In this document: positions 3,116 through 27,054 of the stretch, piece after piece
Numbering within the stretch: the stretch's first letter is position 1
How the letters are laid out: the number at the start of each line of letters is the position of its first letter
IMG/VR virus record: IMGVR_UViG_3300022602_000197
Span: 1 to 40,808 of that record
Direction: 5' to 3' (one strand)
Length of the DNA stretch: 40,808 nt
Source of the DNA: a virus
Program-made: the position numbers and the translations under genes
The notes under the pieces: model-generated
Databases searched by the model: none
The model's input: the letters and a program-made list of their open reading frames with translations, nothing else
Told to the model about the DNA's origin: nothing

Positions 3116-4678
3116 CTACATCATGATGAAGGGCATGGGAGCAACGAATTCTTCATCGCTACGTAATGTTTCATCAATTGTTGCGTCAAAGTTCTGTATC
3201 AGTTGCATCATACGTATAGCCAGCAACATACTCATAACTAAATCGTCCGTTTCGCCTATTTTTGCTTCAAAACTGGTGCCTTTGGCCACGAAATTCTTTA
3301 ATTCGCTTATCAACATCTTACTGGCCAACTTGAGTTTGTTGGTTTCTACCCAACTCTTTAGTTTACTACAGGCCGCAATTTTGCTTTTGTTTAAAGTTGT
3401 GAATCCTTTGCGATGCCGTCTACTTGCACCAGATTTAGCGGGCTCGCTTATAAAGATACCACGGATGTTTTCCTCACCAATATTGGCTATCTCAACCAAT
3501 GCGGCTTCACCCAGTGTATTATTTTCCACACTATAGTAGATGTCTGTTTCGTTGCCTATACAGTCTTTGATGTGTTGTGTGACTTCTTGCAGAATTCTAA
3601 CTTGCCGTTGCACCATAGTTTTATTATCTCGCCACTCACCCACTTGCATCATACTGGGTAACTCAACAATCTGCATGGCTGCAGGATCGCCACCTGTGCC
3701 CAAACTGGGATCTAATGCCACTACATATATGTTGCCCTTGGTGGGTTTCTTATACCAACGCACTTGTCCCTGTTTCTCAATGGGTTCTATTCCCGCCATC
3801 TCCACAAGTTTAAGCGGATTGATCAGTGTCTCATCAAAGATAATGAATTCACATTCCATTTCACGTCTAAAGCGTTCTTCGCCAAGTTGGGATTTCATTT
3901 GATCGGCCCATGCTTGGTCTCTGCCCGGAGTTTCTTGCCACTTGCTGGTAAATGCTTTGAATCCGTTTTTGCCCAATACTGTTGTATTACCATTTGCATC
4001 AAAGGTATCGTTTGCGGCTCGCCATATTTGTGCAAACTGATCTTCGTCTGAGTTTGGTGTGCTTGTAATAATACACTTACCACCAGTTGACAGTGTAGGT
4101 GTAATCGCAGTCCAAAACTCTGACGCAATGGTGGGCCTTACGAATGCAAACTCGTCACAGTACAGGAGCGATATAGACATACCACGACCTGTGTTTTCTG
4201 TTGTTGTTTGACTTACTATGCGACTACCGTTTTCAAAATCCAAACTGCCCTTGTTGTAACTGGTAACACCGGCACGTATAAAATCTGGACAGTTTTCATA
4301 ACTGTATCGGATACGTTGCATAATTTCCTGTGCACCCAAATACTTGTGCGCCGCAACAAGAATAGTTGAATCCGGACAAAACATTGCATACCACAACAAG
4401 TACCCTGCGGCACTGATAGTCTTACCTGTTTGGCGAGGCATCAGCGATATAGAGAATCTATTATTATGATAAGCATCGATCAAACGTATTTGGTATTCAT
4501 AGGGCTTGTATTGTATACTGCCTCTAGTAGGATGTTGGATGTAAAAGTAATTGGTCATGAAGTATTCAGGACCTGTAACAGGATCTGCACATTTGGCAAA
4601 TTCAAGGATCTGCTCCTCGGTCATACTCATTGCTTTGTATGGACTTCGGACAATCGCGGTTTCTAAATCTTTGCTCAT
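3116..4678 (-). CDS. 17: Terminase large subunit gp17 (DNA-packaging motor)
   Basis: This is the ATPase-nuclease that pumps DNA into the prohead and cuts the concatemer. The 520-aa protein has all the hallmarks. The Walker A loop is PRQTGKT (residues 81-87) and Walker B is LLYCDE (171-176, with D175 and E176). The coupling motif STPN follows at 206-209. The RNase H-like nuclease starts at VVALDPSLGTGGD with D323, then has E385 in YSVENN and the acidic pair D478/D479 in GETDDLVMS. It is shorter than T4 gp17 (about 610 aa), mainly at the ends. It is not adjacent to the small subunit: gp16 lies 5.7 kb upstream, behind two homing-type endonucleases and five unknown genes. The HNH gene diverges from its start. 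Confidence 0.95.
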   Translation of the reverse strand: MSKDLETAIVRSPYKAMSMTEEQILEFAKCADPVTGPEYFMTNYFYIQHPTRGSIQYKPYEYQIRLIDAYHNNRFSISLMPRQTGKTISAAGYLLWYAMFCPDSTILVAAHKYLGAQEIMQRIRYSYENCPDFIRAGVTSYNKGSLDFENGSRIVSQTTTENTGRGMSISLLYCDEFAFVRPTIASEFWTAITPTLSTGGKCIITSTPNSDEDQFAQIWRAANDTFDANGNTTVLGKNGFKAFTSKWQETPGRDQAWADQMKSQLGEERFRREMECEFIIFDETLINPLKLVEMAGIEPIEKQGQVRWYKKPTKGNIYVVALDPSLGTGGDPAAMQIVELPSMMQVGEWRDNKTMVQRQVRILQEVTQHIKDCIGNETDIYYSVENNTLGEAALVEIANIGEENIRGIFISEPAKSGASRRHRKGFTTLNKSKIAACSKLKSWVETNKLKLASKMLISELKNFVAKGTSFEAKIGETDDLVMSMLLAIRMMQLIQNFDATIDETLRSDEEFVAPMPFIMM

Positions 4679-4693
4679 AAATGAATTTTCTGT

Positions 4694-4699
4694 TATAAT
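4694..4699 (+). promoter_or_regulatory. Extended -10 promoter (TGT-TATAAT) of the HNH gene
   Basis: TATAAT at 4694-4699 is preceded by TG plus one base (extended -10). TTGCTC at 4671-4676 sits exactly 17 bases upstream as a weak -35. This is a host sigma-70-type signal, so the HNH gene is probably expressed early. Confidence 0.6.
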
Positions 4700-4706
4700 A
4701 TAAGTA

Positions 4707-4714
4707 TATTTAAC
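4707..4714 (-). promoter_or_regulatory. Possible late promoter GTTAAATA for gp17
   Basis: The minus strand reads GTTAAATA 29 bases before the gp17 ATG, matching the late motif except for T at the second position. It overlaps an AT-rich palindrome (about 4693-4715) shared with the divergent HNH promoter. No good Shine-Dalgarno precedes the gp17 ATG. Confidence 0.45.
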
Positions 4715-4739
4715 ACCATTTCAAAAAGAGGTAATCAAA

Positions 4740-5276
4740 ATGAGTGATACTTTGTTGCTCAACAGCAACTATGAGCCAATTTCAATCCTGCCCCTGAGCG
4801 TTATCAATTGGCAACACGCCATCAAACTTATGTTTTTGGGCAGAGTCAATGTGATCGAAACTTACCCAGATTGGCTGATCCGTAGTGAAAAGTTAACCAT
4901 CAATGTACCGTCAGTATGTGTGACCAAAGACTACTTTCACTTTAAAAAGGGTGTACGTTTTAGTCGCTACAACATGTACCTGCGGGACTTGTTCCAATGC
5001 CAATATTGTAATGATGTTTTTGATTTTGAAGATTTGACCATTGACCACGTTGTGCCTAGGGTAGCGGGTGGTAAAACCACGTGGACAAACTGTGTGACTG
5101 CATGTAAGGATTGTAACTTTAACAAGGGCAGTAAAACCAATATCCTGCCACGTATTAGGCCCTATAAGCCCGACTACTATGCTTTAGTTAAGAAGTGGAA
5201 AGAGATGCCTTTTACTGTTAGACAAGAGTCATGGAACCAATACTTGGGTACAGATAAAAAGGTTGTCGGAAAGTAA
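4740..5276 (+). CDS. HNH endonuclease, probable free-standing homing endonuclease
   Basis: A 178-aa HNH nuclease. The zinc-binding pairs are CQYC (residues 87-90) and CKDC (122-125). The catalytic His lies in TIDHVVPR (His103), followed by WTNCVTACKDCNFNKG, a classical HNH arrangement. The N-terminal 80 residues resemble the leader domain of HNH proteins that open with LLLNSNYEPI. It is one of the few plus-strand genes and diverges from gp17. AGAGG at 4727-4731 is the ribosome-binding site. Its last 48 bases overlap the end of the convergent 209-aa gene, as expected for an insertion between packaging and structural genes. A homing role near gp17 is inferred from position; a restriction-like or packaging-linked nuclease is the alternative. 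Confidence 0.85.
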   Translation: MSDTLLLNSNYEPISILPLSVINWQHAIKLMFLGRVNVIETYPDWLIRSEKLTINVPSVCVTKDYFHFKKGVRFSRYNMYLRDLFQCQYCNDVFDFEDLTIDHVVPRVAGGKTTWTNCVTACKDCNFNKGSKTNILPRIRPYKPDYYALVKKWKEMPFTVRQESWNQYLGTDKKVVGK

Positions 5277-16800: not shown

Positions 16801-17204
16801 AACCAATATGTACCACTTGATACTGTACCAGTTGGGCGAACACTTGTTGGTTGTAGTTCGTTTAAATCAATATCTGCACGGATTGCGTACAATTGATTAC
16901 CTAGGCCCAATGCGCTGTAGGCAGCCATCAAACCATATTCGTTTAATTCATTTCCATTTAATGGAGTTCCTGCACTGCTTTGCTGGAATACTGGATATCC
17001 CATTGCTGTGCTTAGATCACGTTGGCTTCCAAATACTTGTAATACACCAGCGTTTGCTTCTGTTGTACCTGTAGCCAATGCTCCATTGATTGTTTTATTC
17101 TCAGCAGTCGCCATGATAACCAATGGAACGGTGCCCACTGCGTTTGATACATATTGACTCTCATCTGTTACGGTTATACTTACACCTGGGGATACTAATG
17201 CCAT
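13815..17204 (-). CDS. 18: Tail sheath protein gp18 with very large central insertion
   Basis: The contractile sheath subunit, 1129 aa against 659 aa in T4. The N-terminus (VSPGVSITVTDESQYV) and the C-terminal 330 residues are typical of gp18. The latter include RTYLYSDNVSYPWFAPAGTRRG, written here in parts as YPWFAPAGTRRG, then WGQKTRDPN, NVSRLVNYIRTIFARAG and FEPND. Between roughly residues 130 and 750 are added beta-rich modules. Several have a repeating G-x-x-WF / YN-x-x-x-x-W pattern (GSVWFKVGS, NGTFWYYSDP, GDLWLNTSD with RYNGSTWVAID). Residues 756-797 resemble a CBM5/12 chitin-binding module (WSSTTGYVIGNKVLYG...W). These would decorate the outside of the tail. It has a consensus late promoter and an AAAGGAAAG ribosome-binding site. 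Confidence 0.92.
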   Translation of the reverse strand: MALVSPGVSITVTDESQYVSNAVGTVPLVIMATAENKTINGALATGTTEANAGVLQVFGSQRDLSTAMGYPVFQQSSAGTPLNGNELNEYGLMAAYSALGLGNQLYAIRADIDLNELQPTSVRPTGTVSSGTYWFDLADTTWGINEWSQATQSFTLETPIIITSSSQTANVTQGTITSEPTPLSSVGQIGNYAVVATTSANRIFYKAGINSGDANHNGLNNTWVLVGTPAWAQSHPTVVGTVTYSNSLPLYANSNVYINSTLVTTPGTTLANLVSAINIANIAGVTADSVNNQLAIYSTGTAVNIALSGNSSTLVTSVGLTPGVYNAPTSQFTTYAGIPPWTNTVSGDINAPSGSVWFKVGSIGSGSNLVVDQYNSITGMWTPQSTPSFSSQNLAIYNLDPSAGGSNIPAGSIYFLNQPPAYGVGNSSYAGYKPFVRAVAGEVSATGNAIASGVFTNPSTFTLTATQPGTSTPISTTVQLLGTGPTDFVTAVLKANIPYVTASVLNGAITLTHLAGGDITLTQISGQPNIPQQAGFIPQGTANAVQNVYALGSGIVLISGFQALTYTYSFSEPVADPANGTFWYYSDPTTVDIMINTGSAWKGYKGAGTDARGYALGNTDSNGVIVAAVAPTTQSSGSALAAGDLWLNTSDLENWPALSRYNGSTWVAIDNTDQVSQNGILFADARWDNSGTNDPVSGSEISVQTLLTSNYVDLDAPNPALYPRGMLLLNTRRSGYNVKKYVADYFTPSAFNVATWSSTTGYVIGNKVLYGTTLYVATSGTTGSPNTNNIPTGGTGWSPLQVASWVTASGLQNSGAPYAGHYAQRQIIVSAMNAAVEANTQIRESQFNFQLICAPGYPELIPNMVSLNNDRANTAFVIGDTPMGLDTSVVDLTNWSNDTNGTGLATNDPYLAVYYPSGLSTDLSGNTIVVPPSHMALRTYLYSDNVSYPWFAPAGTRRGLVNNATDLGYVDYTTGEFVRTGVNQALRDALYQININPITIIPGIGLVVWGQKTRDPNTESMDRVNVSRLVNYIRTIFARAGDAFLFEPNDKLTRDQFAAVLNSALNDLVSKRGIYDYLVVCDTTNNTPDTIANNELYADVAIEPMKDVEFIYIPIRLYNPGTIATLGSA

Positions 17205-17233
17205 AGTAACTTTCCTTTATAATACTGTTCGAA

Positions 17234-17241
17234 TATTTATA
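17234..17241 (-). promoter_or_regulatory. Late promoter TATAAATA for gp18
   Basis: An exact T4 late consensus TATAAATA 29 bases before the gp18 ATG. It is one of only three exact copies in the window, fitting high demand for sheath protein. Confidence 0.8.
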
Positions 17242-17290
17242 TATAATAGTGTTTTTATGGTGTTTTGGGTGCCCTTAATTAAGGTTAGCC

Positions 17291-17298
17291 ACTAAATA
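17291..17298 (+). promoter_or_regulatory. Late-type motif ACTAAATA abutting the zinc-protein start
   Basis: ACTAAATA ends four bases before the ATG at 17303. Using T4 spacing, RNA would start within a base or two of the ATG, giving a leaderless mRNA. There is no Shine-Dalgarno close to the ATG. Confidence 0.45.
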
Positions 17299-17302
17299 CA
17301 AT

Positions 17303-17653
17303 ATGTCAGAACGTAAAATATGCCCCGTATGCCATCAGCGCCCAGTTGCAGTCAATTGCCACCGCGGGGATAAAATATATTATAGGAAAGTTTGTGACGT
17401 TTGTGCCCGGGAAGGCAGAAAAGATAAACCAGTGCCCGCTTGGTACAAGACCGGATATAGAAAAAAGCCGAACTGTGAGAAGTGCGGCTTTAAGTTTAAG
17501 TTCCCAACGGAACAAAGTGCGGTTTATTATTTAGATGGTAATTTAAAAAATAACAATCATTTTAATCTCAAGACTGTGTGTTTAAACTGCGTCCAAGAGG
17601 TACATAAGAGCCGGCTACCTTGGCGACAGAGTCCACTCGTACCAGATTTTTGA
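17303..17653 (+). CDS. Small zinc-ribbon protein, conserved in T4-like phages
   Basis: A 116-aa basic protein with two pairs of CxxC knuckles: CPVC and CDVC near the start, CEKC and CLNC in the second half. It also has YYLDGNLKNNNHFNLKTVCLNC and ends LPWRQSPLVPDF. The Asp-Gly-Asn...Asn-x-x-Asn-Leu-Lys-Thr-Val-Cys-x-Asn-Cys layout resembles the end of an HNH/zinc-ribbon fold, but the catalytic His is not evident. I recall similar small proteins in aquatic T4-like phages without a known role. It runs opposite to its neighbours and its last 86 bases overlap the convergent dNMP kinase gene. DNA binding is inferred. Confidence 0.75.
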   Translation: MSERKICPVCHQRPVAVNCHRGDKIYYRKVCDVCAREGRKDKPVPAWYKTGYRKKPNCEKCGFKFKFPTEQSAVYYLDGNLKNNNHFNLKTVCLNCVQEVHKSRLPWRQSPLVPDF

Positions 17654-18245
17654 GTTGTGTGAATAACTCATCAATAGTATCATTGTTGTCTATTTCGGCA
17701 TCAAATTCCGTTCCTGCCCAAGCAGTTTCTGAGGGATGTATGCCCAAAGTTTTTAAATTTTCCTTGAATATGGGATCTCCGGCGTTTGCTCTCGTAGCAA
17801 CTGGGTACCAAGTGGGTAGTGGGCCACGTTGAATCCAAATTATTCGTCCGCCCTGGGCTCGTATTGCCTTGATCTCGTTGGGAAATCTACAATCAGTGAT
17901 AACAATATTATCCTTGCTGGTACGGATTTTGTTCTCTAGGCTCGCTATCCACATGTCATCGTGGAAGCCATCTCGAATAACTTCTGTGCCCCAATGTTGA
18001 AGAACGTACCTTGGGGTAATGTCTCGCCCCAAACGATTACTCCACCACTCATCTCGTTGCTCGCGCCATTCTCTGCTTTGAGTAGTCCTGCCCTCGAGCA
18101 GTTGCCGATCCCAACCAAATACATTTGCCACTGCATCTTTGAGACTGCTGGCAAAACTTTCTCTACGATAACCGTGAAAATTAACCAAATAATCAGCGGC
18201 TGTATCTTTGCCACTACCAATAAAACCGCATATACCTATAATCAT
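17568..18245 (-). CDS. 1: Deoxynucleoside monophosphate kinase (T4 gp1-like)
   Basis: This enzyme phosphorylates dNMPs to dNDPs for phage DNA synthesis. The P-loop is GFIGSGKDT at residues 7-15 of the start I chose. It is followed by FASSLKDAVANVFGWD, a central ITPRYVLQHWGTEVIRDGFHDDMW, which I cite only as QHWGTEVIRDGF, and a second strand IVITDCRFPNEIKAIRAQGG. These match the gp1 family in order and length (about 225 aa). The ATG at 18245 starts directly before the P-loop strand and has AGGGG eight bases upstream. The longer frame to 18296 would read through the promoter. It carries a near-consensus early promoter within a hairpin. The 3' end overlaps the convergent zinc-protein gene. Confidence 0.87.
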   Translation of the reverse strand: MIIGICGFIGSGKDTAADYLVNFHGYRRESFASSLKDAVANVFGWDRQLLEGRTTQSREWREQRDEWWSNRLGRDITPRYVLQHWGTEVIRDGFHDDMWIASLENKIRTSKDNIVITDCRFPNEIKAIRAQGGRIIWIQRGPLPTWYPVATRANAGDPIFKENLKTLGIHPSETAWAGTEFDAEIDNNDTIDELFTQLKNLVRVDSVAKVAGSYVPLGRSLNTQS

Positions 18246-18246
18246 G

Positions 18247-18273
18247 AATAATGCCCCTATATGGAGCATTATT
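18247..18273 (-). promoter_or_regulatory. SD-sequestering hairpin at gp1 containing the early -10 box
   Basis: The minus strand reads AATAATGCTCC (18273-18263), loop ATATA, GGGGCATTATT (18257-18247): 11 pairs including one G-U. The 3' arm holds the GGGG ribosome-binding site of gp1 and the 5' arm is the -10 box AATAAT. RNA beginning at the predicted start (about 18261) lacks the 5' arm. Confidence 0.75.
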
Positions 18274-18296
18274 ACATTTTTGTGTACATTTGTCAA
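18268..18296 (-). promoter_or_regulatory. Sigma-70-type early promoter of gp1
   Basis: TTGACA (18296-18291), 17-base spacer ending TGT, AATAAT (18273-18268): a perfect -35, a 5/6 -10 and an extended TG. It begins only a few bases after the stop of the DUF6321 gene. Confidence 0.8.
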
Positions 18297-18299
18297 CGA

Positions 18300-18731
18300 C
18301 TAACAATGCCACTTTCTTAGTGATTTATTAATGCGACTATTTGGATCTCGTTTGGTTTTGGCTCCGGTACGATGTTTCTTCATACCTTTCATACGAGCAC
18401 AGAAACTCTTTCTACGCTTGCTGGCTTTACTGCCCTTTTTTAACTTACTGGGCTTGGTGGTTACAGCAGTTTGTAGTTTGCTTCCGGGGTGACTTTTGCG
18501 ATAACTAGCAACACCCTTTTTATTAAGTCCGCCGTTTTTGTTTTTGCCTTTTTTAGTTTGCCAGGCTTCGGCTTCACTTAGTAATTCCTCATCGTCAACC
18601 GATTCCAAGTCTTCCCAAATTAGGTCACTGTCAACTCCGTGAGCATTGGCCCAACTCTCAACCATTTCTTCAATGAGGTCGAACTTTTGATTTAATTCTA
18701 AATCTTCTGTGATAATTTCAGTTATTTTCAT
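18300..18731 (-). CDS. DUF6321 basic protein, possible internal head protein
   Basis: A 143-aa protein in two parts. Residues 1-62 are acidic (MKITEIITEDLELNQKF...DDEELLSEAEAW). Residues 63-143 are very basic and match DUF6321 as I know it: GGLNKKGVASYRKSHPGSKL, TTKPSKLKKGSKASKRRKSF, CARMKGMKKHRTGAKTKRD and a final NKSLRKWHC. The basic half looks like a nucleic-acid binder. The first residues contain I-I-T-E-D, an I-x-E site of the kind cut by T4 prohead protease gp21, near the position expected for a capsid-targeting peptide. A DNA-associated head protein is therefore plausible. It follows gp13 by two bases and has an AGGAT ribosome-binding site. Confidence 0.82.
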   Translation of the reverse strand: MKITEIITEDLELNQKFDLIEEMVESWANAHGVDSDLIWEDLESVDDEELLSEAEAWQTKKGKNKNGGLNKKGVASYRKSHPGSKLQTAVTTKPSKLKKGSKASKRRKSFCARMKGMKKHRTGAKTKRDPNSRINKSLRKWHC

Positions 18732-18734
18732 ATT

Positions 18735-19667
18735 CTATCCTGTTACCCAAGTTAATGGCATACCGTTGTCAACATAATTGACAATCTCATATTCCAAACG
18801 TTCCATTTCAGCCTGCGCTTCTTGTATCATGGCTGGACCATTTAGACTTGTACCTCCCTGTGGACCAGCAATAGAAGCAAACTTGCTGTATGCCTGTCCC
18901 AATAATCTCTTGGAAAAACTATAGGCATATTCCTGTATCCAAGGGAATGAAAAGTTATCATTCAAAATCATTTGATCGGGCTTTAGGTTGTTGATCCAAA
19001 GCAACACACTTTCATAGGGATTTTGTCCGGTGTCATTGCCCGTTGTTCCACCATAACCATATGGCATTTTACGCACAATAGTCAGTTTCTTGGTAGTGGG
19101 GTTGAATGTGTAATTCAAGAATCCACCAAACATCTTCATTGCCAACTTTTGATAGTCAACGAACAATTCGTAGTTAGTCAACCCGCCAACACGTCCCGCC
19201 ACTAGCATATATGTGTTCAAGTAACCACTTGCAAATGGCTCAAATTGGCTGGCTGTTGTTCCTGTCACACTTCCAATACCGCGTCTGAATGCGGCTCTAA
19301 CGTTCATGATCTCTTTGGGCAGTATGTATTCCTGTGTTTCAGGTAACAAGTCCAGGAAGCAATAACTTTCTTCTACACTGTTGGCAGCACGTTGTCTGTA
19401 TTTGATCAGTGCTTGATTGATCGCCATCTCATAATGTTGTTGTTCTAATTCAACATCAACGATACCATCACCCAGTCGCATACGAATGTAATCAGTAATT
19501 GCGGCTCGTTGTAGGTCTGAACTGTTTAGTGTACTGGGATCAAAAGCAATGGGGCCGGGGCCAGTACCTGTATTGGGATTATATAGGGTTTGTGTGGGAA
19601 TACTTCCGAATACACTTAAGTTCCCATCAATTTGGGGTGTTGTTTGTGGTACGCTATATTCACTCAT
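18735..19667 (-). CDS. 13: Neck protein gp13
   Basis: A 310-aa protein of T4 gp13 size (309 aa), which joins head and tail together with gp14. After a Pro/Gly/Thr-rich start comes LQRAAITDYIRMRLGDGIVDVE, cited as DYIRMRLGDGIVDVELE, then HYEMAINQALIKYRQRAANS. FLDLLPETQEYILPKEIMNV, VRAAFRRGIGS and an Ala/Tyr-rich helical end around WIQEYAYSFSKRLLGQAYSK follow. It has an exact TATAAATA late promoter placed inside a perfect inverted repeat that also contains its ribosome-binding site. Its partner gp14 is 2.2 kb away on the opposite strand, unlike the contiguous 13-14-15 of T4. Confidence 0.8.
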   Translation of the reverse strand: MSEYSVPQTTPQIDGNLSVFGSIPTQTLYNPNTGTGPGPIAFDPSTLNSSDLQRAAITDYIRMRLGDGIVDVELEQQHYEMAINQALIKYRQRAANSVEESYCFLDLLPETQEYILPKEIMNVRAAFRRGIGSVTGTTASQFEPFASGYLNTYMLVAGRVGGLTNYELFVDYQKLAMKMFGGFLNYTFNPTTKKLTIVRKMPYGYGGTTGNDTGQNPYESVLLWINNLKPDQMILNDNFSFPWIQEYAYSFSKRLLGQAYSKFASIAGPQGGTSLNGPAMIQEAQAEMERLEYEIVNYVDNGMPLTWVTG

Positions 19668-19672
19668 GATAA

Positions 19673-19703
19673 AATCCTGTTATAGTGTATTTATAACAGG
19701 ATT
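19673..19703 (-). promoter_or_regulatory. Perfect 12-bp inverted repeat gating gp13 translation
   Basis: AATCCTGTTATA (19703-19692), a 7-base loop and TATAACAGGATT (19684-19673) pair without mismatch. The 3' arm contains the gp13 ribosome-binding site AGGA (19678-19675). The late promoter TATAAATA is embedded in the 5' arm and loop. RNA from the promoter (start about 19682) lacks the 5' arm, whereas read-through RNA from the early 391-aa gene would form the stem. The stem plus TTTT could also end that early transcript. Confidence 0.85.
19688..19695 (-). promoter_or_regulatory. Late promoter TATAAATA for gp13
   Basis: Exact T4 late consensus followed by C, 21 bases before the gp13 ATG, inside the inverted repeat 19673-19703. 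Confidence 0.82.
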
Positions 19704-19718
19704 CAGAGGTTGCGGGGC

Positions 19719-20894
19719 TTATTCTACTTTTAGCAGAACAACATCAGTACTGATACGCCCGTTCATTTTGGTTTCAGTTGCCTTGATATCTTCAAGGAAC
19801 TTTCTTAACTGAACTTTACCTGCCTTGGCAAACTCTTTGAGTTTCTCATCAGGCTTCCGCAATGTCTTGCTAACGCTCTTGTCAGTGTCAAAGTTTGTGA
19901 TACTAGTGCCCTTGACGTTGAGTGTTTGATAAGCGGCCGCAACATACTTGCCTAATTTTCTAGACTTAGTGTTGTATACCCATAGGGTCGAAGCACCAAT
20001 GATATCTGCAGGATTAATACTGACAATTTTAAGTGCGGCATCAGTCTTTGCATATTTGAGTTTGGCAATAACCTTTTCTTTGCTGGGTGCTTTACGCACT
20101 TTGGCTTTCTTAGTCGCTTTCTTAACTCCGCGATACTGTTCAATCGCTGCCATTAAGTTGTCGATCCAAGCAATCATTCGCTTGAAGTCTGCGGCCTTGT
20201 AGTGTGCATAACCTTCTTTTAAGTCGGCATCCTTTTTCAGCATGGCTGCTTCAAGTTCTGCTTTGCGTTTTGAGTAAACTGCTTCATACTTGCCCAATTG
20301 ACTTTGCACCACATTCTTGGCAACTAAAAAATCGTAGGGTTTGAAGTCTACTTTGATTGCTTTTGTGACATCGTCATAAACACCCTCGATGTCGCCAATT
20401 ATTTCTGAGGTTTTTTCCTGTAAACGATCTTGAATAGTGGGTGCTTTGTAAACTTCTTTGACCTCTGCTACAACTTCCTCTACGGCTTCGGGTTCTGCTT
20501 TAGCAATCGCTTCTAAAAAGCATTGATCCAAGAATTCAATATGTCTTGGCTTTAGGGGCATGTTGGCACGAATATGCGCCATTACAATGCAACAGGCAGT
20601 CATGGGCATCGCTTTATCTGAACTGCGTTCAAACGCTTTGACTTGTTCTTTTGTATACTTTTTATCGTTACGCTTCAAATACTCCACAATGTTCTTGCGG
20701 GCATCTTTTTGGTTGTAGTAATAATTGTAGTAATAAAAACTACGGCGGAGTTTGTTGTCAAACTCATTGTCTGGCAATGCGAGATCTTCCTCACTCCAGT
20801 CTGGCTCCCCGCCTGTGTACTTTTCGTCATGTAATGCGGGGTTGCGAACCTTGGTTTGCTTTGTCTTGATTTTGATGCCAGCCACAACTGCCAT
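19719..20894 (-). CDS. Early-expressed 391-aa unknown protein
   Basis: A highly charged 391-aa protein with no family I can name. Features in order: a basic start (IKIKTKQTKVRNPALHDEKY); a Tyr cluster SFYYYNYYYNQKDARKNIVE (about residues 52-71); a helical region with MPMTACCIVMAHIRANMPLK; a coiled-coil-like acidic/basic stretch (EAVEEVVAEVKEVYKAPT); a central RKAELEAAMLKKDADLKEGY helix; a Lys-rich linker (KKATKKAKVRKAPSKEK); and a beta-rich end (STLWVYNTKSRKLGKYV). A perfect sigma-70 promoter and a TTAGGAGAA ribosome-binding site precede it. It is thus probably made early by host RNA polymerase despite lying between structural genes. A regulatory or DNA-metabolism role is conjecture. Confidence 0.78.
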   Translation of the reverse strand: MAVVAGIKIKTKQTKVRNPALHDEKYTGGEPDWSEEDLALPDNEFDNKLRRSFYYYNYYYNQKDARKNIVEYLKRNDKKYTKEQVKAFERSSDKAMPMTACCIVMAHIRANMPLKPRHIEFLDQCFLEAIAKAEPEAVEEVVAEVKEVYKAPTIQDRLQEKTSEIIGDIEGVYDDVTKAIKVDFKPYDFLVAKNVVQSQLGKYEAVYSKRKAELEAAMLKKDADLKEGYAHYKAADFKRMIAWIDNLMAAIEQYRGVKKATKKAKVRKAPSKEKVIAKLKYAKTDAALKIVSINPADIIGASTLWVYNTKSRKLGKYVAAAYQTLNVKGTSITNFDTDKSVSKTLRKPDEKLKEFAKAGKVQLRKFLEDIKATETKMNGRISTDVVLLKVE

Positions 20895-20917
20895 AGTATT
20901 CTCCTAACTAAAATTGT

Positions 20918-20946
20918 ATTATAGCAGGTATCCCATTTATTGTCAA
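20918..20946 (-). promoter_or_regulatory. Perfect sigma-70 promoter of the 391-aa gene
   Basis: TTGACA (20946-20941), exactly 17 bases, TATAAT (20923-20918), with TGC forming an extended -10. Start predicted near 20911, giving a leader of about 16 bases with TTAGGAGAA. Confidence 0.92.
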
Positions 20947-20950
20947 ATTC

Positions 20951-20958
20951 AATAAATA
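20951..20958 (+). promoter_or_regulatory. Late promoter AATAAATA for GIY-YIG endonuclease 2
   Basis: AATAAATA, 61 bases before the ATG, the same distance as the late motif of endonuclease 1. It is divergent from and directly adjacent to the early promoter of the 391-aa gene. Confidence 0.55.
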
Positions 20959-20963
20959 GTAGT

Positions 20964-20993
20964 GTAGTTCGCGGAATTGGAGTTCCCAACTAC
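20964..20993 (+). promoter_or_regulatory. Leader hairpin of GIY-YIG endonuclease 2
   Basis: GTAGTT and AACTAC (6 bp) enclose an inner GGAA/TTCC stem with a TTGGAG loop. The structure lies between the late promoter and the AAAGG ribosome-binding site (21006-21010). It is a leader structure analogous to that of endonuclease 1, though with different sequence. Confidence 0.5.
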
Positions 20994-21018
20994 TCTAACG
21001 TCGAGAAAGGACATCAGC

Positions 21019-21537
21019 ATGAATATTTATTACGTCTACGCATACCTACGAAAAGATGGTACCCCGTACTATATCGGCAAAGGTAAAGGGAACCGTGCAT
21101 TCGTTAAACACAAAACCCCGGAAGATTTATCAAGGATCATTATATTACAAAATAATCTAACAGAAGATAAAGCCCACGCACTCGAAATAGCATTAATATT
21201 TTGGTATGGTCGTAAAGATTTGGGTACAGGAATATTACGCAATAGAACGGATGGCGGTGAAGGTACTTCCGGTTTTAAACGAGCGCATAGCGAAGAACAC
21301 CGATATAAAATAGCAACTACCCTCAAAGGAAATGTGCCCTGGAACAAAGGCAAGAGTGGGGTCCAGAGATCAGCACGAAAGGGCAAAACTGCTATAGAAA
21401 TTTACGGTGAGGAAATTGCACAAAAAATGGTAGAGGCGTCTAGAAATAAAAATACCGATTACTTAAAAACTGATGATTATCGCATTGCCCAAAGTAAAAG
21501 AATGAAAGAATGGTGGGCTAAAAGAAAAAGTACCTAA
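21019..21537 (+). CDS. GIY-YIG homing endonuclease (second copy type)
   Basis: A 172-aa GIY-YIG endonuclease. The core is [20 protein letters not shown], then [20 protein letters not shown] and [10 protein letters not shown], closely matching endonuclease 1 at 9698-10291. The C-terminal DNA-binding region differs: one NUMOD3-like unit ([20 protein letters not shown]) and then [20 protein letters not shown] and a basic tail. I start at 21019 because AAAGG lies nine bases upstream and the N-terminus aligns with its paralogue; the frame extends 14 codons further up. It is inserted between two minus-strand early genes, on the opposite strand, as expected of a mobile free-standing endonuclease. 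Confidence 0.92.
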
Positions 21538-21539
21538 CA

Positions 21540-21794
21540 CTACATTTTCAATAAAGTGCCAAATGTGAGGTGTTGCTCTAATACAACAAGAGCCTCATCT
21601 AACTGGCGGGCCAATTCTTCATATTTGGCAGTGAACTTGTTTCTGCGTCTACACTCCACAAATTCCCCGTCCAATTTTGCCCAATATGCAACACAATTTT
21701 GAAACATCAAATGCAATTTGGCATCGCCCAATTTTGCGACGATGGGGCGAGCATCTGCGATTCTATTGTAAAGATTGGGACTGTGCGACTGCAT
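21540..21794 (-). CDS. Small early protein, 84 aa
   Basis: An 84-aa helical protein beginning MQSHSPNLYNRIADARPIVA and ending LEQHLTFGTLLKM. Its centre is LDGEFVECRRRNKFTAKYEEL, which I cite as EFVECRRRNKFT. Proteins with a FVECRR-type centre and a terminal helix occur in T4-like phages without known function. The frame is open to a GTG at 21845, but a perfect sigma-70 promoter lies within that extension, so I prefer the ATG at 21794. The predicted RNA start (about 21795) then makes the message almost leaderless, with only a weak AAGAT before the ATG in read-through RNA. It is separated from the endonuclease gene by two bases. Confidence 0.7.
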   Translation of the reverse strand: MQSHSPNLYNRIADARPIVAKLGDAKLHLMFQNCVAYWAKLDGEFVECRRRNKFTAKYEELARQLDEALVVLEQHLTFGTLLKM

Positions 21795-21801
21795 AATCTT
21801 A

Positions 21802-21830
21802 ATTATAACAGATAAATCAATACGTGTCAA
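21802..21830 (-). promoter_or_regulatory. Perfect sigma-70 promoter of the 84-aa gene
   Basis: TTGACA (21830-21825), exactly 17 bases ending TGT, TATAAT (21807-21802): full consensus plus extended -10. The start is predicted near 21795, next to the ATG at 21794. ATAAT and ATTAT flank a 4-base centre here, so a short hairpin could cover the start codon in read-through RNA. Confidence 0.9.
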
Positions 21831-21834
21831 ATTG

Positions 21835-21842
21835 GCTAAATA
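21835..21842 (+). promoter_or_regulatory. Late promoter GCTAAATA for gp14-gp15-Nudix
   Basis: GCTAAATA, 21 bases before the GTG of gp14. It lies only four bases from the divergent early promoter's -35 box. Confidence 0.65.
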
Positions 21843-21863
21843 CACGATAATCTGGGGAAAATA

Positions 21864-23216
21864 GTGGCAAGACTCTCACTTTGGCAAGACGGCAAACATT
21901 CAAATGACTACAAATTTTTTGATCGCCGTATTTCAGAAATGTTCACAATCGGTGGAACAGGGATTCTGTTGCACAAATATCTAGGTCCCGCTACTCAGGG
22001 CACTCAACTAGCAACCACTGCGGCGCAGGGTTCTCCGGGTCCAGTTATTACTTTGCCCGATACCAGTACAATTAACATCGGCGACACTGTCACTGCCGCG
22101 GGTGTTCCCACAAACAGCACAGTCATTGCCAAAGATGCATCAACTATTACTATCAGTGCCAACACCACAGTGGCTTTGGGCTTGGGTGTCACTATTGGTA
22201 TCAGCAGTAACGCTAGCCAACCCAGTTACACTAACCAAAGCGAACAGAATATACAAGATTTATTATGGCAGGAAAACAGAGATCGCAAGTACGAGCCAAA
22301 TCTTTATAAAATGCGAGGCATATACCAACGTGCCGATCAAGACTTTGACCTAAGTCAATTTGGTTTATTTTTAGCCACCGGAACATTGTTCATGGTGTTT
22401 CATTTGCGTGACATGGTGGACATGATTGGTCGCAAGTTGATGGCCGGTGATGTTTTGGAACTGCAACACCTAACTGATTATGATGCACTAAATCAAGATG
22501 TGCCTGCGGCGCTAAAACGTTACTACGTGGTCAGTGATGGCAGTTTTGCCTCGGAAGGGTTTTCACCCACTTGGTGGCCGCATCTGTGGCGTGTTAAGAT
22601 TAACCCCATGGTGGACAGTCAAGAATACAAAGATATCATTAATGCTATTATCCCAGGCACCACTACAACTACTGGACAAATTTTAAGTACATTGGATACT
22701 AATCTAAGTATCAATGATGCAATTATTGCCGAAGGTACTGGCAACGTTCCACTCAGTGGATACGACACAAGTTCACTATATACACTACCAGCATACATAC
22801 CCGAAACTCCAGACAAGACTGCTGATGATGTTACTGACACTGCTGACGAAATTAGAGACACTGCTGATGAAGGTCCTCCACTTGCCGGACCACCCATTAA
22901 AGGTTATTTGACTGGATCGCCATATGCTCCCAACGGATTCCCGGTACAAGCAGGAATTTCTTTCCCCTATGATCCACACGTTGGTGACTACTTTCTACGT
23001 ACAGATTATCTTCCCAATCGCTTGTTTCAATTTAATGGCAAGATGTGGGTCGCAATCAATAATGTTCAAAGAACAAGTCTAACACAAGGTTCATCTAACG
23101 GAACCCTATTGGGCACGTTCTTAAACGATACAAATACATTTGTAAACAACGATGGTGCTACAGTAAACGAACGACAAAGTCTAAGCACTGCACTAACACC
23201 AAAGGCCGATAACTAA
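21864..23216 (+). CDS. 14: Neck protein gp14 with inserted Ig-like domain
   Basis: A 450-aa homologue of T4 gp14 (256 aa), which with gp13 forms the neck. Start is GTG at 21864 with GGGG just upstream. It begins MARLSLWQDGKHSNDYKFFD, RRISEMFTIGGTGILLHKYL and continues with YTNQSEQNIQDLLWQENRDRKY, cited as NIQDLLWQENRDRKYEP, then DFDLSQFGLFLATGTLFMVF, GRKLMAGDVLELQHL and FSPTWWPHLWRVKI. All of these are gp14 hallmarks. Residues about 47-115 are an inserted beta module (TINIGDTVTAAGVPTNSTVI, ITISANTTVALG). A C-terminal extension carries GDYFLRTDYLPNRLFQFNGK followed by MWVAINN. Its stop overlaps the gp15 start (TAATG). Confidence 0.88.
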   Translation: MARLSLWQDGKHSNDYKFFDRRISEMFTIGGTGILLHKYLGPATQGTQLATTAAQGSPGPVITLPDTSTINIGDTVTAAGVPTNSTVIAKDASTITISANTTVALGLGVTIGISSNASQPSYTNQSEQNIQDLLWQENRDRKYEPNLYKMRGIYQRADQDFDLSQFGLFLATGTLFMVFHLRDMVDMIGRKLMAGDVLELQHLTDYDALNQDVPAALKRYYVVSDGSFASEGFSPTWWPHLWRVKINPMVDSQEYKDIINAIIPGTTTTTGQILSTLDTNLSINDAIIAEGTGNVPLSGYDTSSLYTLPAYIPETPDKTADDVTDTADEIRDTADEGPPLAGPPIKGYLTGSPYAPNGFPVQAGISFPYDPHVGDYFLRTDYLPNRLFQFNGKMWVAINNVQRTSLTQGSSNGTLLGTFLNDTNTFVNNDGATVNERQSLSTALTPKADN

Positions 23217-24601
23217 TGACTACCCCTTCAAATTATTTCTATGACGGCCAGATCCGTAAATTTATAAGTCAATTTATACGTATGGTGTCAAACTTTTATG
23301 TGGAGTTTGGCAAAGACAGTAATGGTGTTACAAGTATTCAACGTGTACCTGTGATGTACGGAGATCCCAGTAGACAGGCCGCACAGATTATTCGCAACAA
23401 CAGTGAGAATACTGTCAATGCAGTGCCTGCAATGGCCGTGTATATTACTGGATTGACTTACGATCAAAACAGACTACGTGATCCATCACTGGTACAAAAA
23501 GTTCAGATTAGACAAAGACAATTTGATCCGGTTACCGGCACATATGGTCCAAACCAAGGTGAAGCATATACTGTGGAACGCTTAATGCCCAGTCCCTATA
23601 AGTTGACGCTCAAGATGGATATTTGGACCAGCAACACAGAACAAAAACTACAACTAATCGAACAATTGGGTGTATTGTTTAATCCTGCATTGGAAATACA
23701 AAGCACAGACAATTATATTGACTGGACCAGTTTGAGTTATGTTATATTAACTGACCTTAATTGGACCAGTAGAAGTGTGCCCACCGGCGGAGATGAGCCC
23801 ATTGACGTTGCCAGTATGACATTTGAATTGCCAATTTGGATAAGCACATCAATCAAAGTCAAGAAGATGGGTGTTATACAAACTGTTATAACAAATATAC
23901 AGGACTTGGATACTTTGGGATCATTGGGCCAGACTATTGTCAGTGTATTGGGTTATAGAGTTTTGTTGAATTCCAATATCAACGGTGGCGCTCCTTTCTA
24001 TACTCTTAAACTTCTAAAACAAGAGGACACAGTCAGTGACAATTTACTCACTGATGATGTCAGCAATGGCACTGGTCACGAGTGGGCAGGCCTATTGGAC
24101 TTATATGGAAAGTTTATTTCCGGGAGCAGTGAGATACGATTAAGTCAACCCAATGGCAGTGAGATAATTGGTACCGTGGCCACACACCCAACTGATCCCA
24201 GTTTGTTGTTGTATTCACCGTTTCCCAATACATTGCCCGCTAACACATTAGAACCCATTAACGCCATCATCGATCCAACTAATGTTAATGTCACCAGTGC
24301 TATAACTAATCCAACAGTTGGTACTCAATATCTTATTATTAATGACATTGGTAGTTTTGAAAACACTCAAGGTGCATTAGCATGGCGTGGGGCAGATGGA
24401 CAAGATTTAGTAGCACATGCCAATGATATTATTGAGTACACAGGCCAACATTGGCAAGTAATATTTGACAGCCAGACTGTAAATACGTTACAATACGTAA
24501 CTAATCTAACAACCGGAATTCAATATAAATGGCAAAGCAATCAATGGACCAAGAGTTACGACGGAGTATACCCCGAGGGCGAGTGGAACCTGTCAATCTA
24601 A
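23216..24601 (+). CDS. 15: Proximal tail sheath stabiliser gp15 with C-terminal extension
   Basis: The 461-aa counterpart of T4 gp15 (272 aa), which caps the sheath and tube at the neck end. The first 250 residues show the family pattern: NYFYDGQIRKFISQFIRMVS, NFYVEFG, RVPVMYGDPSRQA, PAMAVYITGLTYDQNRLRDP, the central ERLMPSPYKLTLKMDIWTSN, FNPALEIQSTDNYIDWTSLS and FELPIWISTSIKVKKMGVI. The remaining 200 residues are a beta-rich extension with no clear T4 equivalent (GTQYLIINDIGSFEN, then GNDIIEYTG-like HANDIIEYTGQHWQVIFDS). It overlaps gp14 by one base and the Nudix gene follows in the same operon. Confidence 0.85.
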   Translation: MTTPSNYFYDGQIRKFISQFIRMVSNFYVEFGKDSNGVTSIQRVPVMYGDPSRQAAQIIRNNSENTVNAVPAMAVYITGLTYDQNRLRDPSLVQKVQIRQRQFDPVTGTYGPNQGEAYTVERLMPSPYKLTLKMDIWTSNTEQKLQLIEQLGVLFNPALEIQSTDNYIDWTSLSYVILTDLNWTSRSVPTGGDEPIDVASMTFELPIWISTSIKVKKMGVIQTVITNIQDLDTLGSLGQTIVSVLGYRVLLNSNINGGAPFYTLKLLKQEDTVSDNLLTDDVSNGTGHEWAGLLDLYGKFISGSSEIRLSQPNGSEIIGTVATHPTDPSLLLYSPFPNTLPANTLEPINAIIDPTNVNVTSAITNPTVGTQYLIINDIGSFENTQGALAWRGADGQDLVAHANDIIEYTGQHWQVIFDSQTVNTLQYVTNLTTGIQYKWQSNQWTKSYDGVYPEGEWNLSI

Positions 24602-25011
24602 TCAGTGCCGGCGCCTTAATATATTGCAAAGCCACACACCGTTATTTGTTTTTACTTCGCAATGGAAGTAAGCATAGCGGATCGTGGGGTTTGGTTGGTG
24701 GTAAAATAGAACGTGGCGAAACTGTAGTTGAAGGATTGAATCGGGAGATTGCAGAAGAGTTGGGTGGTATGATCAAAGACGCCAAACTAATTCCCATAGA
24801 AAAATTCACCAGCGACTCCAGTAAATTTGAATACCACACTTATGTGATCAATGTGGACGAGGAATTTGTCCCAGTGTTAAATCACGAGCATAGGGGCTAT
24901 TGTTGGGTGCATTTGGATGATTACCCCCGACCTCTGCATCCCGGGGTGTGGCGCACTTTTAAATTTAATAGTGTGATAGAAAAAATTAAAACTTTAGAAA
25001 CAGTTTTATAA
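24583..25011 (+). CDS. Nudix hydrolase
   Basis: A Nudix pyrophosphohydrolase of about 142 aa. In the longest frame (ATG at 24529) the Nudix box is at residues 58-80: G-KIERG-E-TVVEGLN-RE-IA-EE-LG, fitting G-x5-E-x7-RE-U-x-EE-x-G. The fold's other strands are ALIYCKATHRYLFLLRNG, SWGLVGG and FEYHTYVINVDEEF. T4 has a Nudix enzyme (NudE) cleaving ADP-ribose and diadenosine compounds; the substrate here is unknown. The start is uncertain. ATG 24529 and 24544 lack ribosome-binding sites and lie inside gp15, while GTG 24583 has GAGGG close by. It shares its stop region with the convergent gene in TTATAA. Confidence 0.85.
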   Translation: MEPVNLISAGALIYCKATHRYLFLLRNGSKHSGSWGLVGGKIERGETVVEGLNREIAEELGGMIKDAKLIPIEKFTSDSSKFEYHTYVINVDEEFVPVLNHEHRGYCWVHLDDYPRPLHPGVWRTFKFNSVIEKIKTLETVL

Positions 25012-25758
25012 GTCTACTTCGTGTACGAATTCTTGAAATGCGATTTGACGCAAGTTAATTTGGTATTTCCATCTGTCAGGCATATACCAATTGGCAGTGG
25101 GCATAACTCTGACAAAATCCACTTTGGGATATGTATTCATTACTTCTGACAGACTTCTAGAGAAGAATTCCTCTGTGGTTGCGTCTACCTTTTCCGGATA
25201 GCCATTTGTGCCTGTGTACACGTTAAAGTTATAGTTGGATTCATTTGAATGTGTGTCAAAGCCCATCAAATAAACAGTAGTGTGCCCGTCAAAACAAGCA
25301 AGGTAAGCAGCCAATGCGCCCATGTCATATTGCGGACTCTGTGGCACTAGATAAAAATTTCCGGGGTAAGCGAGAACCATTTGAGCAGTGCCGTAGATAA
25401 TATTGTTATGGCAGTATCCACCATTTACCAATTCATGAGCCAATGCATCATTTGCCACAACAAAGTCTGGCATGAAATCACGAACAATGGCATTACATCC
25501 ATAAGTTTGTACCGCCCCGGATGCCAATAATCCGCCCTTGTGATTGCCCAATAGTTGCAAAAGATTGCCCTGCGGATATAAATCCAATCTGCTGGGACCA
25601 TTGCCTATAACAACTGCCTTGTTACTGATCTGTGTGTTGGTGACTGCATTAGGCACATACTCTGTGGTCTTTTCCCACTGTGATCCGGAATAAGTCAGTT
25701 TAGTGACTATTTCTTCACCAGCATAATTAGTGCGATACAGTTGTTTAATTTTTTGCAT
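25006..25758 (-). CDS. DUF115/MAF-like Rossmann protein
   Basis: A 250-aa protein with a central nucleotide-binding-like start KAVVIGNGPSRLDLYPQGNL (about residues 47-66). TYGCNAIVRDFMPDFVVAND, NIIYGTAQMVLAYPGNFYLV, a strand VYLMGFDTHSNESNYNFNVY and a C-terminal Trp/Tyr-rich end follow. The GNGPS loop, CNAI and PDFVVANDA pattern resembles the DUF115/MAF flagellin-modification and MptE-like family, which handle nucleotide-linked sugars or pterins. In a phage it could modify a glycan or act in surface-sugar chemistry, but this is inference. It has an exact TATAAATA late promoter, so it is expressed with structural genes. The stop overlaps the Nudix stop on the other strand. Confidence 0.72.
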   Translation of the reverse strand: MQKIKQLYRTNYAGEEIVTKLTYSGSQWEKTTEYVPNAVTNTQISNKAVVIGNGPSRLDLYPQGNLLQLLGNHKGGLLASGAVQTYGCNAIVRDFMPDFVVANDALAHELVNGGYCHNNIIYGTAQMVLAYPGNFYLVPQSPQYDMGALAAYLACFDGHTTVYLMGFDTHSNESNYNFNVYTGTNGYPEKVDATTEEFFSRSLSEVMNTYPKVDFVRVMPTANWYMPDRWKYQINLRQIAFQEFVHEVDL

Positions 25759-25779
25759 AATGGTTGCTCTGTTATAGCG

Positions 25780-25787
25780 TATTTATA
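25780..25787 (-). promoter_or_regulatory. Late promoter TATAAATA for the DUF115/MAF-like gene
   Basis: Exact late consensus followed by C, 22 bases before the ATG at 25758, directly after the stop of the 420-aa fibre gene. Short arms GTTATA and TATAAC (25798-25771) bracket it, a weaker version of the arrangement at gp13. Confidence 0.8.
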
Positions 25788-25791
25788 ATAA

Positions 25792-27054
25792 TTATAACGG
25801 TATCCCGGTTCTAACATATTTTACAGTATTATTGGTGCTGGCTCCGGTGGCCCAAAGGCGAATTATTCCCGAAGTCATATTGGCGCTAAATGTCATTCTT
25901 TGACTGGGCCCGGTATAAAGGATACCGTAAGTTACGATGTTTACGTTGGCCCCATCTTGTGCCAATAAGATTTCTGTGGCTTGGCTCCACGAGTTTGTGA
26001 CATCTTGAGTAGAAATTACATATTTGGCACTACGTATTGTGGTATTAGCAAAACTATCAATTGCAACCGCCCCTGTACCAATGCTGATAATAGTGCTTGA
26101 AATATCTGATACTGTTGCCGATCCATATGTTATATTTCCGCCAACATATAAATTGCCTGCTATACCAACACCACCAGCCACTTGCAAAATACCAGTAGTA
26201 GTGCTAGTCGAAGCAGTGGTACCTGTAATAACTATATTACCACTGACATCTACTTGTAAGTCAGTGGTCCAAGAACTGCCATTATATCTACCAACAGTGA
26301 ATCCAGCAGTTGCACTATTTCTTGTGTCTGTAATAAACTGTGCGCTGCCCCGTTGTGTGCTGTCTGAGTAGTTGTTGCCAAATACTGAAAAGTATGCCCC
26401 ATAAATGCTACCGTTTCCATCCTGCATACCGAATGTTAAACGACTGCCGGTGTCGGGTGAGAATAGCCCTTTGACTCCAGAAGTAAAGAACATATTACTG
26501 CTAATAGTCAAGTTGGCTGATGTTGTTAAATTACTGCCAATCGTAATAGGGTTGTTTGTGGCCGCAAGATTAGCTAACACCTGTGTGTTGCCGTATGTAC
26601 TGCTGACAAATGGGGTTCCATTAGCATAGTAGTATGCGGGACTATACACACCGGTACTGGCTATAACATTGGCAGAGTTTACGTTCCCAAATATACCCTG
26701 TGCACCAGTATTACCGATAGTGACTGCATTGACCCCGCCAATGCTCAAATTGCCCACGACGCCCAGAATACTGCCCTGAACCATTAGCAAATTACCAATG
26801 GTTAGGTTAGCATAACTCTGAACGGAGATATTTGCGTTATTGACGCCGGCACTTGTGGTCAGTGCCGTTATAAAACTCTGAGTGCTTTCGCTCCAATAAA
26901 TTGCGGCATTTGCAACCAATCCACTGGCACGATTGAATACGAAACCTATATCAGCATTTGCTTGAGTAGCCCCGCCATGTAAAACAGTAACAGAATCTGT
27001 AAAGATTGCAGTATTTGTTAATATATTTTCAAAATTCGGGCGAGTTAGAGCCAT
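25792..27054 (-). CDS. Tail-fibre-type structural protein, 420 aa
   Basis: A beta-rich, Thr/Asn/Ser/Gly-rich fibre protein. Near the start, DIGFVFNRASGLVANAAIYW followed by SESTQSF is an adhesin head module also found in the 984-aa and 172-aa proteins. The middle carries repeated GNLxIGG and SANLTISSN shaft-like units. AGGVGIAGNLYVGGNITYG precedes the end. The C-terminal 85 residues (VAIDSFANTTIRSAKYVIST, ATEILLAQDGANVNIVTYG) are shared with the end of the 1682-aa protein, so the two may share a tip or attachment domain. Late promoter GCTAAATA lies 21 bases upstream. A role in host contact is inferred from composition. Confidence 0.8.
   Translation of the reverse strand: MALTRPNFENILTNTAIFTDSVTVLHGGATQANADIGFVFNRASGLVANAAIYWSESTQSFITALTTSAGVNNANISVQSYANLTIGNLLMVQGSILGVVGNLSIGGVNAVTIGNTGAQGIFGNVNSANVIASTGVYSPAYYYANGTPFVSSTYGNTQVLANLAATNNPITIGSNLTTSANLTISSNMFFTSGVKGLFSPDTGSRLTFGMQDGNGSIYGAYFSVFGNNYSDSTQRGSAQFITDTRNSATAGFTVGRYNGSSWTTDLQVDVSGNIVITGTTASTSTTTGILQVAGGVGIAGNLYVGGNITYGSATVSDISSTIISIGTGAVAIDSFANTTIRSAKYVISTQDVTNSWSQATEILLAQDGANVNIVTYGILYTGPSQRMTFSANMTSGIIRLWATGASTNNTVKYVRTGIPL

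Follow-up and report, generated by a model that had tools for sequence, protein, structure and literature searches.

A hairpin holding the late promoter and ribosome-binding site of a gp13-like neck-protein gene is a probable RNA switch in uncultured phages

Translation of the long RNA of phage T4 gene e, which encodes lysozyme, is repressed about 100-fold. The logic published for e, soc, 49 and I-TevI is that a hairpin hides the ribosome-binding site in early RNA (PMC3014915, PMC2988022). In gene e the late promoter lies in the upstream strand of the stem and the ribosome-binding site in the 3' arm; the early read-through RNA is closed, whereas the late RNA is open (PMC3014915). Likewise, gene 49, I-TevI, I-TevII, segB and Aeh1 mobE carry the late promoter in or next to a hairpin that sequesters the ribosome-binding site (PMC2988022, PMC3014915). 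We analyzed a 40,808-nucleotide stretch of DNA from an uncultured, T4-like bacterial virus (IMG/VR record IMGVR_UViG_3300022602_000197, positions 1 to 40,808; hereafter the window), in which promoter and ribosome-binding site are placed as in gene e and the opening of the late RNA is a folding prediction. The regulated genes differ. Gene e is a lysis gene, and neither its arms nor the genes beside it are related in sequence to those of the window; the others are nuclease genes, whereas the gene in the window encodes a gp13-like neck protein and several of its relatives encode the 5' arm within the upstream protein gene. Switches of the T4 e type are already known; the gp13 neck-protein gene is a site for which we found no earlier description, and a literature search for a hairpin at gene 13, with most subscription journals outside its coverage, returned none.

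The gp13-like gene (18735..19667, minus strand) encodes 310 amino acids, of which residues 49-304 match the family profile phrog_211, 'head-tail adaptor Ad2', at E 7e-27; T4 gp13 bears the same family name. Just before the gene, the minus strand from 19703 to 19673 reads AATCCTGTTATA-AATACAC-TATAACAGGATT, a 12-bp inverted repeat with zero mismatches and a 7-base loop. The 5' arm occupies 19692..19703, the loop 19685..19691 and the 3' arm 19673..19684, all on the minus strand. An exact T4-type late promoter, TATAAATA (19688..19695, minus strand), runs from the end of the 5' arm into the loop, the last four bases of the arm being its first half. The ribosome-binding site AGGA (SD; 19675..19678, minus strand) lies within the 3' arm, and the 7 bases TTTTATC separate it from the ATG at 19667. 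The original prediction had described this hairpin, with the promoter inside it and the AGGA in its 3' arm 7 bases before the ATG, and it was correct to the base. In T4 late geometry RNA starts at the last promoter A plus 6, which would place the late start at 19681..19683 (minus strand).

No other 12-bp inverted repeat with a loop of 3-12 bases occurs in the window, and none with a short loop is longer. The longest arm in 30 dinucleotide-preserving shuffles of the window was 11 bp; hairpin length alone is modest evidence, and it is the comparative data that decide. Exact copies of TATAAATA occur about as often as chance predicts (3 seen, 3.75 expected). All three are on the coding strand about 20-30 bases before start codons, namely those of the gp13-like gene, the tail sheath gene and a 250-aa gene at 25006-25758. 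An Rfam search of window positions 17000-27000 gave zero matches at E up to 1.

Upstream of gp13 lies a 391-aa gene of unknown function (19719..20894, minus strand; phrog_11903). In the window its stop codon is 51 nt before the gp13 ATG and ends 14 nt before the stem. The perfect host-type promoter predicted for this gene was found at 20918..20946 (minus strand) as a 12/12 sigma-70 site, TTGACA-17-TATAAT with an extended -10 TGC, reading TTGACA-17-TGCTATAAT from 20946 to 20918. Among relatives, 19/48 distinct regions upstream of this gene hold a sigma-70-type site of at least 10/12. In several other T4-like phages phrog_11903 relatives adjoin genes for RNase H, ribonucleotide reductase, DNA ligase or sugar-modification enzymes, which suggests that the 391-aa gene is a non-structural early or middle gene. 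Downstream of gp13 are genes for a DUF6321 protein and a deoxynucleoside monophosphate kinase, an opposite-strand ORF, and then the tail sheath gene. Elsewhere in the window, a second perfect 12/12 sigma-70-type promoter with an extended -10 lies at 21802-21830 (minus strand), near the start of a 101-aa ORF (21540-21845), and TTGACA-17-AATAAT, 11/12 and also with an extended -10, lies at 18268-18296 (minus strand), right where the monophosphate kinase ORF begins and inside the late gene cluster.

We compared the predicted folds of the read-through RNA and the late RNA, as the original prediction had proposed. In the read-through RNA starting at 20911 (1352 nt) the predicted pairing of the SD with the 5' arm is 99.9%, which leaves it 0.1% unpaired. 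By contrast, in late RNAs starting at 19683, 19682 and 19681 it is predicted to be 60-67% unpaired, the three starts agreeing. Furthermore, a gp55-type late sigma factor is encoded in five of six long related records, with E values down to 8e-84. Together these results suggest a mechanism in which we infer the transcript ends, the actual read-through and the degree of translational repression. RNA entering from upstream, at the latest from the 20946-20918 promoter by way of the 391-aa gene, would carry both arms; the hairpin would then form, cover the AGGA and leave gp13 untranslated. Once the phage late sigma factor is active, transcription would start at TATAAATA in the hairpin apex. The resulting RNA would begin just past the loop and lack the 5' arm, and its ribosome-binding site would be open a few bases from the 5' end. 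The net effect would be that gp13 is made from its own late promoter only.

A scan of viral contigs yielded 80 loci encoding gp13 relatives with 66-90% identity, and 49 distinct homologous junctions were compared. TAAATA is found upstream of the start codon in all 49 and is invariant in their alignment, and in 40 of them each of the four SD-core bases is predicted to pair with RNA lying upstream of the late start. In most loci stem arms surround TAAATA while their letters differ, as in AATCCTGTTATA/TATAACAGGATT, GCCCTGCTAATA/TATTAGCAGGGT, TATCCTGTAGTCTG/CAGACTACAGGATA and ATTACTCTGTTGTACGGTA/TACTGTATAACGGAGTAAT. RNAalifold found no consensus structure in the full 49-sequence alignment, since the distance of the 5' arm from the promoter varies, and we therefore used arm-swap permutations and a subgroup alignment. 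When arms were swapped between loci, own arms averaged -17.6 kcal/mol and permuted arms -10.1 (sd 0.6), with 0 of 10,000 permutations as low. In an alignment of 23 sequences, two-sided changes occur in 15 of 19 pairs, 84.6% of cells are paired, and none of 500 shuffles matches the observed value on any of five measures. Sliding the partner by one to three columns lowered pairing from 85% to 29-48%, a comparison that favours the reference structure over slid versions since that structure came from one member. The shuffles and arm swaps are free of this bias, and kinship among the sequences inflates both. Labelling SD flanks on the gp13 tree, with hairpin-less rows entered as one label, gave at least 15 changes with pairing mostly kept. 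Covariation across dozens of uncultured phages shows strong selection on the hairpin at the neck-protein gene.

Among neighbouring late promoters the arrangement is also specific to this gene. SD sequestration reached at least 0.9 at 39 of 51 gp13 sites and at 0 of 52 other late-promoter sites in the same loci; with shuffled 5' flanks, 13% of gp13 cases and 4% of controls did so. T4 e, 49 and I-TevII, scored as positive controls with the same metric, each gave 1.0. T4 soc, a published case, scores 0.24, indicating that the metric misses some switches of this kind. When whole contigs of three relatives were scanned, each had 2-6 late-promoter-like sites reaching 0.9, chance sites included.

Sequence and computation thus give the anatomy, conservation, covariation and specificity of the hairpin, the predicted accessibility of the SD and a gp55-type sigma factor in relatives, and with these the hairpin matches a T4 e-type switch in the sequence-level features tested. 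The claim that the long RNA is closed and the late RNA open, as in T4 e, gains support from folding, covariation, gene specificity, upstream sigma-70-type promoters and the late sigma factor of relatives. The inverted repeat very probably acts in cis as an RNA switch of the kind described for T4 gene e, gene 49 and I-TevI. Termination, obligatory translational coupling and a DNA-binding palindrome were weighed and ranked low.

It is very unlikely that the hairpin is mainly a terminator, or a 3'-end protector, of the 391-aa gene, with the overlap of the ribosome-binding site secondary. TTTTAT follows the stem in the window, close relatives have T-rich tails, and no other terminator is called in the 51-nt gap between the genes; however, the terminator scan makes no call at the hairpin, whose stem has four G-C pairs in the window and falls short of a G+C-rich stem followed by a U-tract. 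With every hairpin locus taken together, T occurs 1-5 times, most commonly twice, among the 8 bases that follow the stem, and relatives with GGAGTAATAAATG have no T-tract. Moreover, many relatives place the 5' arm inside the upstream coding sequence, and the features that stay constant are an apical promoter and a 3' arm containing the SD. Termination at the hairpin is weak and not conserved, and the proposal that read-through RNA might end at the stem plus TTTT is not supported as a conserved function, as the scan made no call and many relatives lack the T-tract.

Ribosomes that finish the upstream gene might instead open the hairpin and start gp13 from a polycistronic RNA. In 19 of 43 hairpin loci the predicted structure takes in the stop codon of the upstream gene (an automatic tally, a few of whose calls may be inflated by extra weak pairs), for example in CTTCGTGTACAGTAATAAATA, where the 5' arm encodes the last codons of that gene. 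In such loci translating ribosomes could therefore open the hairpin, which counts against a switch. In the other 24 of 43 loci, however, the stop codon ends before the stem, as it does in the window 14 nt upstream, so coupling is not the conserved feature. Coupling also gives no role to the late promoter inside the hairpin, present in 49 of 49 junctions, and we consider it very unlikely as the main explanation. Least probable, and very remote, is that the palindrome serves in the DNA as a binding site for a dimeric protein regulating the late promoter, such as an endonuclease that acts as a repressor in the way I-TevI does: the symmetry around the promoter is perfect in the window and a homing-endonuclease-like gene lies nearby, but arm letters diverge widely among relatives while complementarity stays, and loop length and 5' arm position vary, whereas a protein site would keep letters and not merely pairing.

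Several loci are exceptions to the switch arrangement. The hairpin is absent in L002, L011, L023, L027 and L049 and weak in L065, and several of these loci still have the 391-aa gene directly upstream, which means that the hairpin is not indispensable. In L002, which is close to the window, an HNH endonuclease gene (4247-4894, minus strand) with its own late promoter stands in the opposite orientation between the 391-aa gene and gp13; the 5' arm of the gp13 hairpin is replaced, and the promoter and 3' arm remain. A same-direction gene or long ORF is interposed between the 391-aa gene and gp13 in L029, L031 and L080, where the hairpin is kept, and a gene like that of L080 is interposed in L049, where it is absent. 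In L011, L023 and L027 the upstream gene is present and the hairpin absent. With loci so mixed, the association of the hairpin with read-through is suggestive and not strict.

A nearby leader shares the TAAATA element with the late promoters. In the window it spans 20952-21029 (plus strand), before a GIY-YIG-like endonuclease gene at 21019-21537. The near-invariant leader reads TAAATA-5 nt-GTAGTTCGCGGAATTGG[CA]GTTCCCAACTAC...AAGGAG...CAGC-ATG, and an exact-pattern search found it in 83 viral-contig stretches (L091-L173; it also occurs in L002 upstream of 4894, minus strand), the invariance of its core being partly by selection. The genes behind it look like homing endonucleases of different families: GIY-YIG-like, HNH, NUMOD3-bearing and, in one case, a small zinc-finger ORF. 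The late start of the leader, if placed by T4 geometry, would be the first G of its 5' hairpin. In its second small stem, which presents the ribosome site, the arms vary but remain complementary. Rfam gave no match to the window copy of the leader, and no match to it was found in cultured phages. Directly behind the start codon, 63 of 63 distinct leaders have TATTTA (21024-21029 in the window), which is TAAATA in reverse complement. That this TATTTA occurs in each of the three reading frames (40/13/10) points to a signal at the level of nucleic acid and not of protein.

A second promoter-bearing hairpin was found in relatives (L200-L278) at a gp6-like baseplate gene behind a gp25-like gene. 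This hairpin around the late promoter is shorter and weaker than that of gp13, and its arms covary (own -8.6, permuted -6.1, sd 0.28; 0 of 10,000). As gp6 and gp25 are both baseplate genes, the arrangement is not confined to early-late junctions. On this point the original prediction is weaker, early-versus-late logic not being the only context of the arrangement. Sequestration may serve the dependence of a gene on its own promoter, beyond blocking early translation. More tentatively, a promoter within a hairpin could be a general device by which phages of this group insulate selected virion genes ('own promoter only'), strongly at gp13, weakly at gp6 and perhaps at others, beyond early/late timing; in many members the 5' arm lies in the last codons of the upstream gene, whose translation could tune the switch.

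Two cultured phages can be compared at the neck-protein gene. T4 gene 13 encodes a protein of the homologous family (head-tail adaptor Ad2), but the gene lies behind wac, and the 70 bases upstream of it contain no TAAATA promoter. Pseudomonas phage PA5oct shares the gene order, a homologue of the upstream protein and TAAATA before the neck gene, but has no hairpin over the ribosome site. The PA5oct type alone, among the cultured phages examined, keeps both genes adjacent in this order, and it does so without the hairpin. Nucleotide comparison of the junction with cultured phages gave nothing useful.

With the comparative approach used here, such switches can be sought in metagenomic phages without any infection experiment. 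The logic of the switch can be tested on natural variants, among them about five junctions where the hairpin appears to have been lost, in one case in connection with an inserted endonuclease gene. A control element known from a few T4 genes, those of lysozyme, gene 49 and homing endonucleases, would thereby extend to a neck-protein gene.
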